DNA from: Archangium sp.
GTDB taxonomy: Bacteria; Myxococcota; Myxococcia; Myxococcales; Myxococcaceae
Length of the DNA: 7,888 bases
NCBI GenBank assembly: GCA_016793525.1
Contig: JAEUJT010000453.1
Location: 1 to 7,888, forward strand
Reading direction: 5' to 3'
The notes under the pieces were generated by a model, which saw only the letters and a program-made list of their open reading frames with translations, did no database searches and had not been told where the DNA came from. This document shows, in pieces, positions 2,432-7,888 of this stretch; positions within the stretch are counted from its first letter, which is position 1, and each line of letters begins with the position of its first letter. The position numbers were made by a program, and so were the translations under genes.

Positions 2432-3457
2432 ATGCACCCAACTCCCTTTGCTGTTGCGCTCGTGGCCGCCGGCGTCGCGCTGGCTCAGACGCCTCCCCTC
2501 GAGGCCCGCGCGAAGTCGCTCTTCAAGCCGCTGCCGAAACAGTTCGAGTCGAAAGACAACCCCATCACCGCCGACAAGGTGGCGCTGGGCAAGCTGCTCT
2601 ACTTCGACACCCGGCTCTCGAAGAGCCAGACCATTTCCTGCAACAGCTGCCACGACCTGGCGAAGTATGGCGTCGACGGAGAGCCCACCTCGCCGGGCCA
2701 CAAGAAGCAGCGCGGCGGCCGCAACTCGCCCACCGTGTTCAACGCCGGCAACCACATCGCGCAGTTCTGGGACGGCCGCGCCAAAGACCTCGAGGCGCAG
2801 GCCATGGGCCCGGTGCTCAACCCCATCGAGATGGCGCTGCCCGACGCGCACGTGGTGGAGGCGGTGCTCAAGTCGATTCCCGGGTACCCGCCGCTCTTCG
2901 CCAAAGCCTTCCCCGCCGACAAGGAGCCCGTCACCTTCGCCAACATGGCCCGGGCCATCGGCGCGTTTGAGCGCACGTTGGTGACGCCGAGCCGCTTCGA
3001 TGCGTACCTCGCCGGCGACGCCAAGGCGCTGACCGACGCGGAGAAGAAGGGCCTCGACACGTTCATCTCGGTTGGCTGCGTGGCGTGCCACGTGGGCGAA
3101 GGCGTCGGCGGCGGCATGTACCAGCGGCTCGGCTTCGCGGTGCCAGTGGCCAGCCTGAAAGACTTCGGCCGCTTCGACGCCACCAAGGTCGAGGCCGACA
3201 AACACTTCTTCCGCGTGCCGAGCCTGCGCAACGTGGAGAAGACCGCGCCCTACCTGCACGACGGCAGCGTGAAGACGCTCGATGAGATGGTGAAGTTCAT
3301 GGCCAAGTACCAGCTCAACCGCGAGCTGAAGGCCGACGAGGTGACGTCCATCGTGACGTTCCTCAAGTCGCTCACCGGGCCGCTGCCGGTCGCGGCCATC
3401 TCGCCACCGAAGCCGCTCCCCAGCGGCAAAGACACGCCGAAGCCCGACCTGAACTGA
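2432..3457 (+). CDS. Exported di-haem cytochrome c peroxidase (CCP/MauG family)
   Basis: A 341-residue periplasmic protein with a signal peptide of about 18-21 residues (short hydrophobic core, likely cleavage near ALA-QT). Two haem-binding motifs are present: CNSCH (70-74, peroxidatic domain) and CVACH (216-220, electron-accepting domain), spaced as in bacterial CcpA. Other family positions are intact: His90 in the loop after haem 1 (SPGH), RNSPTVFNA (97-105), the inter-haem Trp113 in QFWDGRA, NPIEM with Glu133, and RVPSLRNVEKTAPYLHDG (261-278). Met290 in the segment before YQLN is the likely sixth ligand of the high-potential haem; a Met rather than the Tyr of MauG favours a classical peroxidase. 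It would reduce H2O2 to water using electrons from small c-type cytochromes. After the domain is a Pro/Lys-rich tail (318-341). The start ATG is set by the signal peptide; the Shine-Dalgarno is weak. The ligand assignments rest on recalled alignments. Confidence 0.95.
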   Translation: MHPTPFAVALVAAGVALAQTPPLEARAKSLFKPLPKQFESKDNPITADKVALGKLLYFDTRLSKSQTISCNSCHDLAKYGVDGEPTSPGHKKQRGGRNSPTVFNAGNHIAQFWDGRAKDLEAQAMGPVLNPIEMALPDAHVVEAVLKSIPGYPPLFAKAFPADKEPVTFANMARAIGAFERTLVTPSRFDAYLAGDAKALTDAEKKGLDTFISVGCVACHVGEGVGGGMYQRLGFAVPVASLKDFGRFDATKVEADKHFFRVPSLRNVEKTAPYLHDGSVKTLDEMVKFMAKYQLNRELKADEVTSIVTFLKSLTGPLPVAAISPPKPLPSGKDTPKPDLN

Positions 3458-3468
3458 GCTTCAGGGCG

Positions 3469-3765
3469 TCAGCGACAGGCGCACGCTTCGCACTCGCTCA
3501 GCGTCTTGAACGGCTTGACCCCGTCGCCATCGGCGCAACCGCCCCAGGAGAACCGCGCGCACTGCTTCGCCGACGTGTCGAAGAAGTACGCGTCGATGTT
3601 CGCCTCGCACACGCCGGGGACCGGCCCTCGCTCGCACTGCCGCTGACACGGTGCGCTCGCGCCGCAGCTCAAAGTCCCGAGGAGCCAAACGAACCCCACC
3701 GCCAACCAGGCATGTCGCGTCACGCGCGCACTGTGAACCACGCGACCCGCCCTGCGCAACCTCAC
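3469..3765 (-). CDS. Small exported or lipid-anchored protein with a Kunitz/BPTI-like domain
   Basis: A 98-residue protein: basic N-terminus, hydrophobic helix (residues 20-33), Cys34 after TLS, then a cysteine-rich domain. Cys34 could be a lipidation site, but TLSC is an imperfect lipobox; cleavage after ASA (36-38) by the ordinary signal peptidase is the alternative. The domain spacing C44-8-C53-15-C69-7-C77-14-C92 equals that of bovine pancreatic trypsin inhibitor for the first three intervals, with two extra residues in the fourth. Further matches are Gly51 two before C53, Ala55, YFFD (60-63), and FSWGGC (72-77), corresponding to BPTI FVYGGC. Glu54 occupies the P1 inhibitory position. Cys40 and the terminal C95 and C97 are additional or displaced relative to BPTI. 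The start is GTG at 3765, overlapping the upstream stop as GTGA; an in-frame GTG at 3723 would give a shorter, more typical signal peptide. A protease-inhibitor role is inferred, not shown. Confidence 0.8.
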   Translation of the reverse strand: MRLRRAGRVVHSARVTRHAWLAVGFVWLLGTLSCGASAPCQRQCERGPVPGVCEANIDAYFFDTSAKQCARFSWGGCADGDGVKPFKTLSECEACACR

Positions 3766-5492
3766 CCGCCGTCAGCTGTACCGGCGTCGACGGCGGTGCT
3801 GGTGGGCCCCGCCTCGAGGTCGTCACCGACCAGGTCGCCCGTCGAGCCGAAGCGCTGGGCGAGCAACGTCGCTTCGTGCTCGGTGAGCGAGAGCAGCAGT
3901 CGAACGTTCGACAGGCCCCGCTCGGCCAGCGTCGCGTCGCTCATCGCGCGGCCGACCTTGAGCAGCCCCACGCTCACCTCGGGGTCGAAGGGGTTGACCG
4001 CCAGCGCGTCGGTGTACGCGGTGCGGGCCAGGGCCCAGTCTTTCTTTCGCAGCGCGATGCGCCCGAGGTGCACGTTGGTGCCCGCGGAGCCGGGGTGCGA
4101 TTCGAGCGCGCTCTTCAGCACCTTCAGCGCCTCGTCGAGGCGGCCAACCTCCATCAGGGTCAGCGCGTATTTGTTGCTGATGCTCTCGTACCGCGCGCCC
4201 ACCACGCCCCACGCGCGCTCGTAATACGTCAGCGCCGCGGGTATTCGGTTGCGCTCGCGCAAGACTTCGCCCAAGTGCGCGGCGCGGCGCGCGTCGGGCT
4301 CCTTCACCTCGGCGAAGTCACCGAAGCTGATTTCGCGCTGGGCCTTCGCCTTCTTCGCCCCGTTCTCGGCCGCGAGCTCTTTCTTCTCGTTCGACGACGT
4401 GGGGATGAGCTCCTTCGGGTACGGCTGCTTCTTCAGAAACGCCATCCACCCCTTCTCGAACTCGGGCCACTTCTTGCCGGTGACGCGCTCGACGGCGGCG
4501 CGGTCGCTCAGGCCCTGCGACATGGCGGTGAGCAGCCGCTCGAGCGCGTCGTCGCCATGCTCGGAGCGAATGAGCTGAATGGCGAAAAACACCTCGGCGA
4601 AGGCGGTGGCCGCGTCTTCAGCGGTGGGCAGCAGCGCCATCGACGGGTGCATCTTCTCGAAGGGCACGAGCGCGTTCTTCCGCACCCGGCTGCCGAGTAG
4701 CGCCAGCGTCGACGGCGTCATCGCGCCACCGGCCGGCCCGCGCCACCGCGACTCGAGGTACTTCGCCAGGCCCTCGTGCATCCAAATCGGCACGGTGTTG
4801 CGGCTCTTCCGCGAGACGACGAGGTGCGTGTACTCGTGCGCCAGTGTGTCGAGCCAGTCGTAGCCGTGCACCACGGCCTTGGGGCTGGTCACCATGAGCT
4901 TGTTGAACTTGCAGATGGCGATGGTGCCGGTGGTGCGAATGGCCTCTTTGGAGAGCGTCGATACCTTCGACAGCTCCGACGCGTTGTTGATGATTTCGAC
5001 CCGAATTTTGCCCGGCGGCGCGTAGCCGAGGTCGTGCATGAGCGCGGTGCGAATGTCTTCGAGCGCGTCGAGCGCCCACGGCACCAGCACCGCGTCTTTC
5101 CCCGGCGGGGTGAGAAGAATGAAGTGCGCCGATTCGTGCCGTTCGTGCTTCTCGACGATGCGCTGCGTGTCTTTGGCGAGGCGCAGCCAGCTGCCCGGCT
5201 TGTCACCCACTCCGGCGCGGGTGAGCTCGTCGATGGCCAGCGCGTAGTCACCTTCTTCGAAGGCGATGCGGCCGCGGTAGTAGCGCACCGGCTCGACGTC
5301 GTGCGGCGCGATGCGCTCGAGCTCGACCAGCTCGGCCTTGGCACCCTCGGCGTCCCAGTCGTCGAGGAGCTGGTCGATGTTTTGAATGCGCGCCTTCGCC
5401 TCGCCCTTGAGCTCGGGCAGCTGCACGTCGGCGGGCTCGTTCAGCCCGGCATCGGCGGCCAAGGCCAGCGCGAGGAGAAAAGCCGGCGTCAT
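3762..5492 (-). CDS. Exported TPR protein with peptidase-MA-type zinc metallopeptidase domain
   Basis: A 576-residue protein. Residues 1-15 form a short signal peptide (MTPAFLLALALAADAG), placing it in the periplasm or beyond. An N-terminal helical, TPR-like region (about 33-92) precedes a gluzincin-type catalytic domain (about 120-355). That domain has the zinc motif HEYTH (His219, Glu220, His223) and, 17 residues on, IWMHEGLAKYLES with Glu240 as probable third ligand; this pair is typical of the peptidase MA-like family (PF13485). A Lys/Glu-rich linker (about 366-388) leads to a second block of TPR repeats (about 403-505), of which residues 471-504 are the clearest. The acidic, Thr/Ala-rich tail has no recognised domain. 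All catalytic residues are present, so activity is expected, but the substrate is unknown. ATG 5492-5490 is supported by AGGAG eight bases upstream and a 4-bp overlap with the preceding stop. It is the middle gene of a coupled three-gene set. Confidence 0.9.
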   Translation of the reverse strand: MTPAFLLALALAADAGLNEPADVQLPELKGEAKARIQNIDQLLDDWDAEGAKAELVELERIAPHDVEPVRYYRGRIAFEEGDYALAIDELTRAGVGDKPGSWLRLAKDTQRIVEKHERHESAHFILLTPPGKDAVLVPWALDALEDIRTALMHDLGYAPPGKIRVEIINNASELSKVSTLSKEAIRTTGTIAICKFNKLMVTSPKAVVHGYDWLDTLAHEYTHLVVSRKSRNTVPIWMHEGLAKYLESRWRGPAGGAMTPSTLALLGSRVRKNALVPFEKMHPSMALLPTAEDAATAFAEVFFAIQLIRSEHGDDALERLLTAMSQGLSDRAAVERVTGKKWPEFEKGWMAFLKKQPYPKELIPTSSNEKKELAAENGAKKAKAQREISFGDFAEVKEPDARRAAHLGEVLRERNRIPAALTYYERAWGVVGARYESISNKYALTLMEVGRLDEALKVLKSALESHPGSAGTNVHLGRIALRKKDWALARTAYTDALAVNPFDPEVSVGLLKVGRAMSDATLAERGLSNVRLLLSLTEHEATLLAQRFGSTGDLVGDDLEAGPTSTAVDAGTADGG

Positions 5493-7888
5493 TTCACCAG
5501 CTCCTCGTAGTAGCGCTTGTTCTGGTCGCGGTATCGGTCGGGTGCGCCCTGCTTCATCGCGTCCATCACGTCTTTGCGCAGCTCGCGCGGGGCGTTGTTG
5601 GGGTCGTCGTCGGGGATCTCGACCTTCTCTGTCGACGGGCCTTTCCCCTGCCCTTTGCCTCGGCCACCCATCGGCATCGGCAACCCGCCGCCTTTCCCAC
5701 CGCCGCTGCGCTGTTGCTGCTTCTGGAGCTGCTGCTGCAACCCGCGGAGCGACTGCACCGCGCCCTGCTGCTCGCCGTACCCACGCGACGGGTCTCTGCC
5801 CGCGAGGCGCTCGCCGGCGGTGCCCATGTGCTGGCCCGCCTGGTCGAGCTGCTCGGCGGCGTTTTCATCGAAGATGGGCGCGCGCTCGCCGAGCGCCTTC
5901 ATCTGCTCCTTGAGCTGCCCCACCTTCTGCTCGAGCTTCTTCTGCTGCGCGGTCTGCTCGGAGACCTGCTGGCGCTCGGCCTCAGACAGCTGGCTGCCCA
6001 TCGGCGGGAAGACGTCGCGCAGCGCGCGGGCCACTTCTTCGGCCTTCGCCTCCCCGCGCTTGAGCTCTTCATCGAGCTGCTTGGCCCGGCGCTGCATCTC
6101 GGGAGGCAAGCCGTACAGCTCGCTCCGCCGCCGTTGATCGGCGCCCTCGCTGGAGAGCGCCGAGGCGTGTTCGCTGAGCGACCCGGCGGCCTCGGCGGCG
6201 AGGTCGAAGTCATTGGCCTCGAGCGCCTGCTTCACGTTCTCGATGTCGCCGAGCGCGGCGGCGCGTTGCTGGTCGAGGTCGGCCGAGGTGCGCGACGTGT
6301 CGAGCGCGCGGTAGGCCTGCTCGAGCTCCTTCAGCTTCTGCTGCACTGCGCGCTTGGCGGCCGCGCCTTGGGAGGCGATGCGCTCCTTCATCTGCTCGCG
6401 GTGCGCGTCGCGGATCTTCTTGGTGCGCTCGGCCAGCGCCTGCTGCTCCTCGAGCGTCTGATCGAGCGCCTCGGAGAACTCCCGGTACTCGCGCGCCAGC
6501 TCGGGGTCGGCCTGCTCGTCGGCCTCGTCTGACGCGTCTTGCAGCTGCTCGAGGAACTGGTCCATCTCCATCGCGAGCGCCTGCATCTGCTTCATCGCCT
6601 CTTCAGCGTTGCCCTCGCGCACCAGCTTCTCGATGTCGTCGAGCTTCGAGTTGAAGTCGCGCTCGGCCATCATCTCGTCGATGGCCTCGCGGTTCATGAA
6701 GTCGTCGCGAATGCCCTTCGCCAATTCCGACATGCGCGCCTGGAGCTCGGCCATGCGCTCCTTCAGCGCGCTCATTCGCTCGAGCAGCGCCTGTTTGGTG
6801 GCGTCGTCTTTGGTCGAGCGGAACTCTTCGAGCAGGCGCGACAGCTCGCGGCGCTCGCGCTGGAGCTCCTGCGCCAGGTCTTTCATGGCCTGCAGCTTGG
6901 CCCGGTCGAGGAGCGACTCGAGGTAGAGCACGTTTTTTTCAGAGTGCTCCGCGTCGCGGCGCAGCGACTCGACGAGGCGCTGGCCGACGATGCGCACGGT
7001 CTCCGCGGGGGCGGGCCGCTGCGAGGTGTGCTCCGGGTCGCGGCCGGCCACGCGGAGGTAGACCAAGCGGTTCAACGAGGTCTCCGAGAGGTCACGGTTC
7101 AACTCGGTGGCGATGTTCGCCGCCGCGCCCAGCAGGCCTTCAGGGGGCTCTCGCTCCGACGCCAGGCTCTTGGCGAAGGCCGCCAGGTCGGACCCCAGCA
7201 TCATCGCCGCGCCGTCGGTGCTGCGGTGCTGCTGCGCGACCTCGGCCGTCAGCGCGGTGCGCTCGCGCGACTCGAGGCGGTCGGCGAGGTGGGTCACCAG
7301 GCGCTCCCACAACGCTTCAGCTTTCTTCAGTGCGTCTCGTCGGTGGGCCGCGGCGCTGTAGAGCGTCAGTCGCTGAGTGCGCGACACCGCTTTCTTCGGC
7401 CCCTTCACCGCGTCGTTGTCGGTCGCCTCGATGAAGTACTGAACCGTGGCGCCAGGGCGGAGGGAGAGCGCGCTCAAGCTCCACGCGTACTGCCCTCGGG
7501 TGGCGCGGCCCTCGTCGGGCTTGAGCGGCACGCGCTGTTCTTGGTGGCCATCGGCCCGGTACACGAGCGCCAGCGCGGAGAGGCCGAAGTCATCGACCGC
7601 GTCGTATTTCACGGTGACGGCCCGCGCCTCGGGGTCGAGCTCGAGCTCGTCGAGCGGCGCGGAGATGCGCACCTGGGGCGCGGTGTCAGGCTCGGCCACC
7701 ACCGGCATGTCAGGGCCCTCGGCCACGACGCGACTCCCCTCGAGAAAGGCCACGTGTGAGGTGCCCGGGGCGTCGACCACGAAGCTGCCGGTCAGCTCGC
7801 GGCCCTTCACCCGGAGGGGCACCGACACCCCGTTCACCACCAGCGCGGCGGAGGACACGTCGCGGTCGGCGCGGGTGACGATGAGCAC
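5489..7888 (-). CDS. DUF4175-type coiled-coil envelope protein, 5' end outside window
   Basis: The frame is open to the window edge, so the N-terminus is missing; 799 residues are visible (numbered from the edge). Residues 1-175 are beta-rich, with repeated Ig/Fn3-like strands such as VTVKYDAVDDFGLSALALVYR (first 20: VTVKYDAVDDFGLSALALVY, 91-110) and VQYFIEATDNDAVKGP. A long, charged, almost entirely helical region (about 180-695) follows, rich in Glu/Gln/Lys/Arg heptads and probably coiled coil. Residues 716-752 are Gln- then Gly/Lys-rich and low in complexity. The last 45 residues include RELRKDVMDAMKQGAPDRY and end KRYYEELVK, a pattern recalled from the C-terminus of DUF4175 (TIGR02302-like) proteins. 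Those proteins usually have N-terminal membrane helices, which would lie beyond 7888. Function is unknown; an envelope or scaffold role is an inference. The stop TGA (5491-5489) overlaps the start of the metallopeptidase gene. Confidence 0.85.
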   Translation of the reverse strand: MLIVTRADRDVSSAALVVNGVSVPLRVKGRELTGSFVVDAPGTSHVAFLEGSRVVAEGPDMPVVAEPDTAPQVRISAPLDELELDPEARAVTVKYDAVDDFGLSALALVYRADGHQEQRVPLKPDEGRATRGQYAWSLSALSLRPGATVQYFIEATDNDAVKGPKKAVSRTQRLTLYSAAAHRRDALKKAEALWERLVTHLADRLESRERTALTAEVAQQHRSTDGAAMMLGSDLAAFAKSLASEREPPEGLLGAAANIATELNRDLSETSLNRLVYLRVAGRDPEHTSQRPAPAETVRIVGQRLVESLRRDAEHSEKNVLYLESLLDRAKLQAMKDLAQELQRERRELSRLLEEFRSTKDDATKQALLERMSALKERMAELQARMSELAKGIRDDFMNREAIDEMMAERDFNSKLDDIEKLVREGNAEEAMKQMQALAMEMDQFLEQLQDASDEADEQADPELAREYREFSEALDQTLEEQQALAERTKKIRDAHREQMKERIASQGAAAKRAVQQKLKELEQAYRALDTSRTSADLDQQRAAALGDIENVKQALEANDFDLAAEAAGSLSEHASALSSEGADQRRRSELYGLPPEMQRRAKQLDEELKRGEAKAEEVARALRDVFPPMGSQLSEAERQQVSEQTAQQKKLEQKVGQLKEQMKALGERAPIFDENAAEQLDQAGQHMGTAGERLAGRDPSRGYGEQQGAVQSLRGLQQQLQKQQQRSGGGKGGGLPMPMGGRGKGQGKGPSTEKVEIPDDDPNNAPRELRKDVMDAMKQGAPDRYRDQNKRYYEELVK
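5501..5505 (-). promoter_or_regulatory. Ribosome binding site of the metallopeptidase gene
   Basis: AGGAG on the minus strand, eight bases before the ATG at 5492-5490, and lying inside the last codons of the DUF4175 gene. It is the best-spaced Shine-Dalgarno in the window; several other starts have weak ones. It fixes the start of the metallopeptidase and, with the ATGA overlap, supports translational coupling. Confidence 0.65.

Follow-up and report, generated by a model that had tools for sequence, protein, structure and literature searches.

Does a short reading frame in a myxobacterial contig encode a true Kunitz protease inhibitor, and if so, where does such a protein come from and what might it act on? 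The frame lies on the minus strand, at 3469-3765, of a 7,888-nucleotide stretch of an Archangium assembly (contig JAEUJT010000453.1; hereafter the window), and an earlier reading of the sequence (the original prediction) had described it as a Kunitz/BPTI-like domain in a small exported bacterial protein. Kunitz/BPTI inhibitors (MEROPS I2) are textbook animal proteins, yet our results indicate that bacteria have a sizeable group of their own, made up of probable lipoproteins and marked by a distinct sequence signature. Judged by its sequence relatives, the window protein belongs to this large, little-noticed bacterial Kunitz family and is not a stray animal gene.

The domain itself was located as follows, with residues numbered from the longest reading of the frame.

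3475-3636, minus strand: Kunitz/BPTI domain, residues 44-97 (Pfam match 44-94), from PF00014, PDB sequence matches, and a fold model of moderate confidence

The Pfam scan matched PF00014 with 35.9 bits (E 8.4e-9, cut-off 21), and no other Pfam family was found on the protein up to E 1; NCBIfam gave no family match. The best PDB sequence match was TFPI (E 1.3e-12), and the others were boophilin, dendrotoxins, collagen VI chains, and further animal Kunitz domains. A profile of the listed relatives made without the window protein scored it at 67 bits, while shuffles with the cysteines held fixed reached at most 11.8 (1995 of 2000 scored), and therefore the cysteine pattern alone is insufficient to account for the match. 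A chance open reading frame was rejected on the PF00014 score and on these shuffles. The predicted fold, with a short N-terminal helix, a twisted hairpin, and a C-terminal helix, has the Kunitz arrangement. Thus, the profile score and the fold on which the original prediction had staked its Kunitz domain were both found, the fold at moderate confidence. The details it had listed were also read in the sequence as claimed, namely cysteine gaps of 8, 15, and 7 (C44-C53-C69-C77), YFFD at residues 60-63, the FxWGGC motif (FSWGGC, 72-77), and Phe86 ahead of C92. It had passed over the 14-residue gap, the C-x2-C-x-C end, Cys40, the GTG start at 3723, and the 4-nucleotide stop overlap, all of which are described below.

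Two readings of the gene are available.

3469-3723, minus strand: Kunitz gene, probably for a lipoprotein, in its likelier reading; GTG start at 3723, 84 residues, stop at 3469
3469-3765, minus strand: longest reading of the frame, 98 residues; its GTG at 3765 and the stop of the upstream gene share 4 nucleotides (GTGA)

The whole frame is open for 98 codons. The GTG at 3723 (residue 15) is the likelier start, because in several relatives the protein begins at the corresponding position and the signal peptide follows at once: P0104 begins with MTR, and L026, L028, L030, and P0009 begin with MLSH, directly ahead of the signal stretch. The guanine-cytosine (GC) content by codon position was 0.61, 0.61, and 0.85 (first, second, third). 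The third position was the highest in the Kunitz frame and in all three neighbours (0.90-0.92). The second position was raised over the 0.42-0.45 of the neighbours, which is consistent with a short protein containing many Cys, Gly, and Ala residues. No promoter-like site was found at 3300-3900; one terminator-like site was found there, against 0.6 expected from shuffles.

The N-terminal part of the protein resembles the leader of a bacterial lipoprotein.

3667-3723, minus strand: predicted signal peptide with the lipobox-like end GTLS-C, from the sequence and the family-wide Cys after a hydrophobic stretch
3664-3666, minus strand: Cys34 codon, the predicted lipid-modified residue; the next residue is Gly, not Asp, and an aligned Cys occurs in 94 of the 97 rows having a residue there

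The lipobox was assigned by eye and with a home-made hydrophobicity rule rather than with a signal-peptide predictor. By the same rule, a lipobox-like Cys lies behind a hydrophobic stretch in 199 of 207 single-domain proteins (window protein counted). These results agree with the signal or lipoprotein leader claimed originally, and the window protein is probably a membrane-tethered lipoprotein.

The family was defined by profile searches of a protein collection, which gave 490 matches with alignment A1 (made with four relatives) and 165 with alignment A5, the two sets partly overlapping. Of each set, 120 matches were listed; they comprise 212 distinct proteins, or 213 with the window protein. 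The one-domain Kunitz pattern fits 207 of the 213; the six omitted are five two-domain proteins and one that does not fit (P0165). For column statistics, alignment A3 holds the window protein and 99 of 120 listed matches, and A4 the window protein and 69, after two-domain, over-long, and similar rows had been left out by eye. Seventeen of the matches listed carry an organism name: 3 Myxococcota, 9 Bacteroidota (some placed there by genus), 2 Pacearchaeota, 1 red alga (Chondrus crispus), and 2 freshwater mussels. The Chondrus protein (P0010) has two Kunitz domains, one with GVVPF, and the Pacearchaeota records (P0048, P0110) are single-domain family members; possibly, these are cross-domain transfers. 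Six PF00014 matches (P0003, P0089, P0098, P0110, P0161, P0163) are labelled 'proteinase inhibitor I4 serpin' by a source. This label is wrong for PF00014 proteins, and some database labels thus conceal the group.

The bacterial group is defined by the signature WGGC-x-G-V-x-P-F and by a single Kunitz domain following a short leader. GVVPF was present in 184 of the 207 proteins and G-[VI]-x-P-F in 190, the remaining 17 having mostly G-T-V-P-F or a close variant. The window protein carries this motif with three inserted residues, as WGGC-ADGD-GVKPF.

3526-3534, minus strand: three-residue insertion, placed by alignment at residues 78-80, after the C38-equivalent Cys; empty in 99 of 99 aligned relatives

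The cysteines for the three Kunitz disulfides (5-55, 14-38, 30-51) are all present in the window protein. BPTI has the cysteine spacing 8-15-7-12-3, with a C38-C51 gap of 12. The corresponding gap is 11 in 205 of the 207 proteins (window protein counted), 10 in one other, and 14 in the window protein alone. The insertion was absent from all 206 other single-domain proteins counted, including those from a search aimed at closer kin.

Two features of the termini concern additional cysteines.

3646-3648, minus strand: extra Cys40, four residues ahead of the first Kunitz Cys, considered for the co-occurrence of N- and C-terminal extra Cys in the family
3475-3492, minus strand: C-terminal C92-E-A-C95-A-C97, holding the fifth and sixth Kunitz Cys and one extra, read from the sequence

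With the extra Cys present, the last Kunitz gap of the window protein is 2 or 4, compared with 2 or 3 in bacterial relatives. The C-x2-C-x-C end combined with a Cys four residues ahead of the first Kunitz Cys was found in 26 of 207 proteins (window protein counted). Extra cysteines were present both upstream and downstream in 108 proteins, upstream only in 14, downstream only in 24, and at neither end in 61. The co-occurrence gave a Fisher value of 2e-19, which is no true probability as the rows are related, and it came out alike under four ways of assigning the lipid Cys. Because the two extra cysteines tend to occur together, our results suggest that they pair as a fourth disulfide in many members.

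What the protein might act on depends on its reactive loop.

3595-3615, minus strand: predicted inhibitory loop, residues 51-57 (G-V-C-E-A-N-I), with P1 Glu54 and P1' Ala55, from alignment with animal Kunitz inhibitors, column variability, and P1 and P1' counts

In the window protein, the loop is supported by the small P1' Ala55 and by G75-G76-C77. Among the 99 aligned relatives, the Gly ahead of P3 and the P1' Ala were each kept in 98 and GGC in all 99, and P1, P3, and P2' were the fifth to seventh most variable of 49 core columns. Over the 207 proteins, P1' was Ala in 203 and Gly in the other 4, and P1 was Lys in 75, Glu in 40, Arg in 21, Leu in 19, Asn in 14, Tyr in 12, Phe in 10, Asp in 7, and others in 9; three P1-Glu rows had served as seeds of the second search, so Glu may be over-counted here (16 of 118 in the first set). 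Constancy of the scaffold alongside a varying P1 is the pattern that would be expected of a canonical inhibitor meeting different proteases. The protease-inhibitor reading of the original prediction is supported. Because P1 is Glu54, the target of the window protein is probably not trypsin-like. Glutamyl endopeptidases would be a natural guess; Glu-specific targeting is not known to be usual for natural Kunitz inhibitors.

On balance, the window protein is probably, though with considerable room for doubt, a lipid-anchored canonical (substrate-like) inhibitor of extracellular serine proteases. The signal peptide would be cut ahead of Cys34, Cys34 would be lipidated, and a short linker would tether the Kunitz domain to the outer face of the membrane. 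In the domain, a fourth disulfide, tying its N-terminal to its C-terminal end, would probably join the three of the Kunitz fold. The loop G51-V-C-E-A-N-I57 might then bind at the active site of a protease of the S1 type (trypsin/chymotrypsin fold) and place Glu54 in its S1 pocket. Such a target would have to accept an acidic P1, as may a glutamyl endopeptidase secreted by another microbe, and the most likely role would be to protect the surface of the cell, or proteins that it secretes itself, from foreign proteases. A wider claim is offered tentatively: at least two bacterial phyla may deploy a widespread lipid-anchored, often four-disulfide Kunitz arsenal whose P1 diversifies against proteases secreted by competitors, prey, or predators, with the window member aimed at glutamate-specific proteases.

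The same anatomy could also belong to a canonical inhibitor whose target is a protease of the cell itself, in the envelope or secreted, and which would be either a housekeeping regulator or an immunity factor for a self-made exoprotease, and here the distribution of the domain is informative. PF00014 was present in 5 of 96 genomes of the family of genome G014 and in 7 of 195 of its phylum (Myxococcota by record titles), but in 0 of 14 control genomes; a bacterial-group profile recovered the same 7 of 195. Counted per genome, Kunitz domains are therefore uncommon, as originally stated for bacteria, but the bacterial family has hundreds of matches. In four of the genomes (G003, G009, G010, G096), the Kunitz gene occupies one common locus, immediately upstream of a conserved gene of 249-259 residues and different from its location in the window. 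An endogenous role would allow such a fixed place, and myxobacteria secrete many proteases. However, the patchy presence and the varying P1 suit changing foreign targets better, and no S1 protease family was matched in the seven window proteins scanned. We regard inhibition of an own protease as conceivable but doubtful.

The shield against foreign proteases must also be weighed against a Kunitz fold serving as a binding module without protease inhibition, comparable to the animal channel-binding Kunitz proteins and the collagen VI C5 domain. Many animal Kunitz domains are non-inhibitory, the sequence matches include dendrotoxin and chains of collagen VI, and the P1 of the window protein is acidic. 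The near-invariance of the P1' Ala, the Gly ahead of P3, the loop Cys, and GGC while P1 varies is nevertheless the pattern of a working loop, and Lys and Arg together make up 96 of the 207 P1 residues, so that a purely binding role appears unlikely.

The neighbouring genes raise the question of whether the Kunitz protein has a local partner.

3762-5492, minus strand: upstream neighbour, a TPR protein with a Peptidase MA domain and HExxH at 219 (Pfam PF13485 and TPR)
2432-3457, plus strand: convergent neighbour, a di-haem cytochrome c peroxidase (CCP_MauG; Pfam PF03150, 190 bits), with 11 bases between it and the Kunitz stop

The Peptidase MA/TPR gene has 25 related loci (up to 73% identity), titled as Archangium, Archangiaceae, Myxococcus, Myxococcaceae, Myxococcales, Myxococcota, or Deltaproteobacteria metagenome-assembled genomes, in keeping with the myxobacterial source claimed originally. 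With the DUF4175 gene, it forms a conserved pair (window 3762-7888, minus strand), the two occurring together in 22 of the 25 loci. None of the 25 loci, 24 of them reaching 1 kb or more past the matched end, showed a Kunitz frame next to the Peptidase MA/TPR gene; the best tblastn value for the Kunitz frame there was E 0.34, and the strict cysteine pattern matched the window alone. Loose cysteine-pattern matches beside the neighbour gene in L012, L018, and L023 were judged by eye to be chance. Because these loci show no Kunitz gene, it would seem to have arrived at, or moved to, its present place within the window's lineage. A search of plasmids and phages with the relative P0041 (tblastn) gave no match at E 0.01, and thus no sign of carriage on mobile elements in those sequences.

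That the Kunitz protein is an inhibitor or chaperone of the Peptidase MA/TPR product is suggested by the shared strand, the 4-nucleotide overlap with the longest reading, and the HExxH of the neighbour. However, the loci give no sign of a functional partnership, the four Kunitz-bearing genomes among 19 drawn from the 25 loci have the gene elsewhere, on a contig of different length, and Kunitz domains act on serine rather than metallo proteases. This partnership is very improbable and was rejected.

Recent transfer from an animal, or animal contamination, was likewise rejected as having next to no likelihood. The fold is best known from animals and the PDB matches are animal, but the closest kin found come from bacteria or metagenomes and share the lipoprotein leader and G-V-x-P-F, the NNF form of that position occurs only in two mussel proteins among the 213, and the GC content at third positions is high, like that of the neighbours. 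In a Kunitz tree (126 rows, 54 columns) too poorly resolved to decide the matter, the grouping of the window protein with P0104 at 85% in the Shimodaira-Hasegawa-like approximate likelihood-ratio test (SH-aLRT) joins long branches and does not count as evidence. The original prediction that the domain was 'acquired or evolved independently' was therefore half right. Convergence does not hold, because the match to animal Kunitz domains spans the domain (residues 44-94) and the fold is thus homologous, and with bacterial or metagenomic nearest kin recent acquisition from animals is unsupported; transfer between bacteria may have occurred.

Compared with known inhibitors, the window protein shares with BPTI, the TFPI domains, and APPI a domain-long PF00014 match, the 8/15/7 spacing, the P1' Ala loop, a YFFD-type strand, and GGC. 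It differs from them in the lipobox-like anchor, the extra Cys pair, Trp for Tyr before GGC, G-V-x-P-F for the NNF stretch, the 14-residue C38-C51 gap, and P1 Glu. Entries annotated as 'BPTI/Kunitz domain-containing protein' or 'I4 serpin' from Myxococcales, Archangium, Larkinella, Flavobacteriaceae, Hymenobacter, Catalinimonas, and others have the same size, leader, and motif, and many the same extra Cys, whereas the three-residue insertion is found in the window protein alone. Kunitz peptides in an Acinetobacter baumannii genome record (F6W77) were tested as S1 protease inhibitors and inhibit factors XIa and Xa. According to that report, few such peptides are known from bacteria, and the peptides differ from the window protein in forming five domains of one exotoxin-labelled protein, in the Arg P1 of the three anticoagulant ones, and in being animal-like (PMC11511053). 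Brucella Omp19, an outer-membrane lipoprotein and protease inhibitor protecting the bacterium, belongs to the unrelated family I38 and serves as a precedent for a lipoprotein inhibitor guarding its cell (PMC6607954). Pacifastin-like domains, another small disulfide-rich inhibitor fold, are reported to occur in myxobacteria (PMC13388995). Among the matches listed from the open literature (titles and abstract openings), we found no description of the bacterial Kunitz lipoprotein group and no measured protease inhibition for it. The PF00014 domain and the automatic annotation of relatives were already known. The small, stable Kunitz proteins make microbial protease defence directly testable, and the group bears on the origin of the Kunitz fold.

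The remaining three of the seven genomes hold Kunitz genes of other kinds. In G004 (L029/L044, L047), a Kunitz gene with P1 Glu is split into two pieces in different frames, either by an assembly error or as a decaying gene. In G112, of the same phylum as the window, two probably secreted proteins of 360 and 409 residues (L031:763-1845, minus strand; L033:1405-2634, plus strand) combine an NNF-type Kunitz domain with Kazal domains, unlike the window protein, and their domain content marks them as multi-headed bacterial protease inhibitors. In G191 (L032:1-3156, minus strand), one Kunitz domain lies within a Cys-rich protein of great length that has extended Asp-rich repeats.
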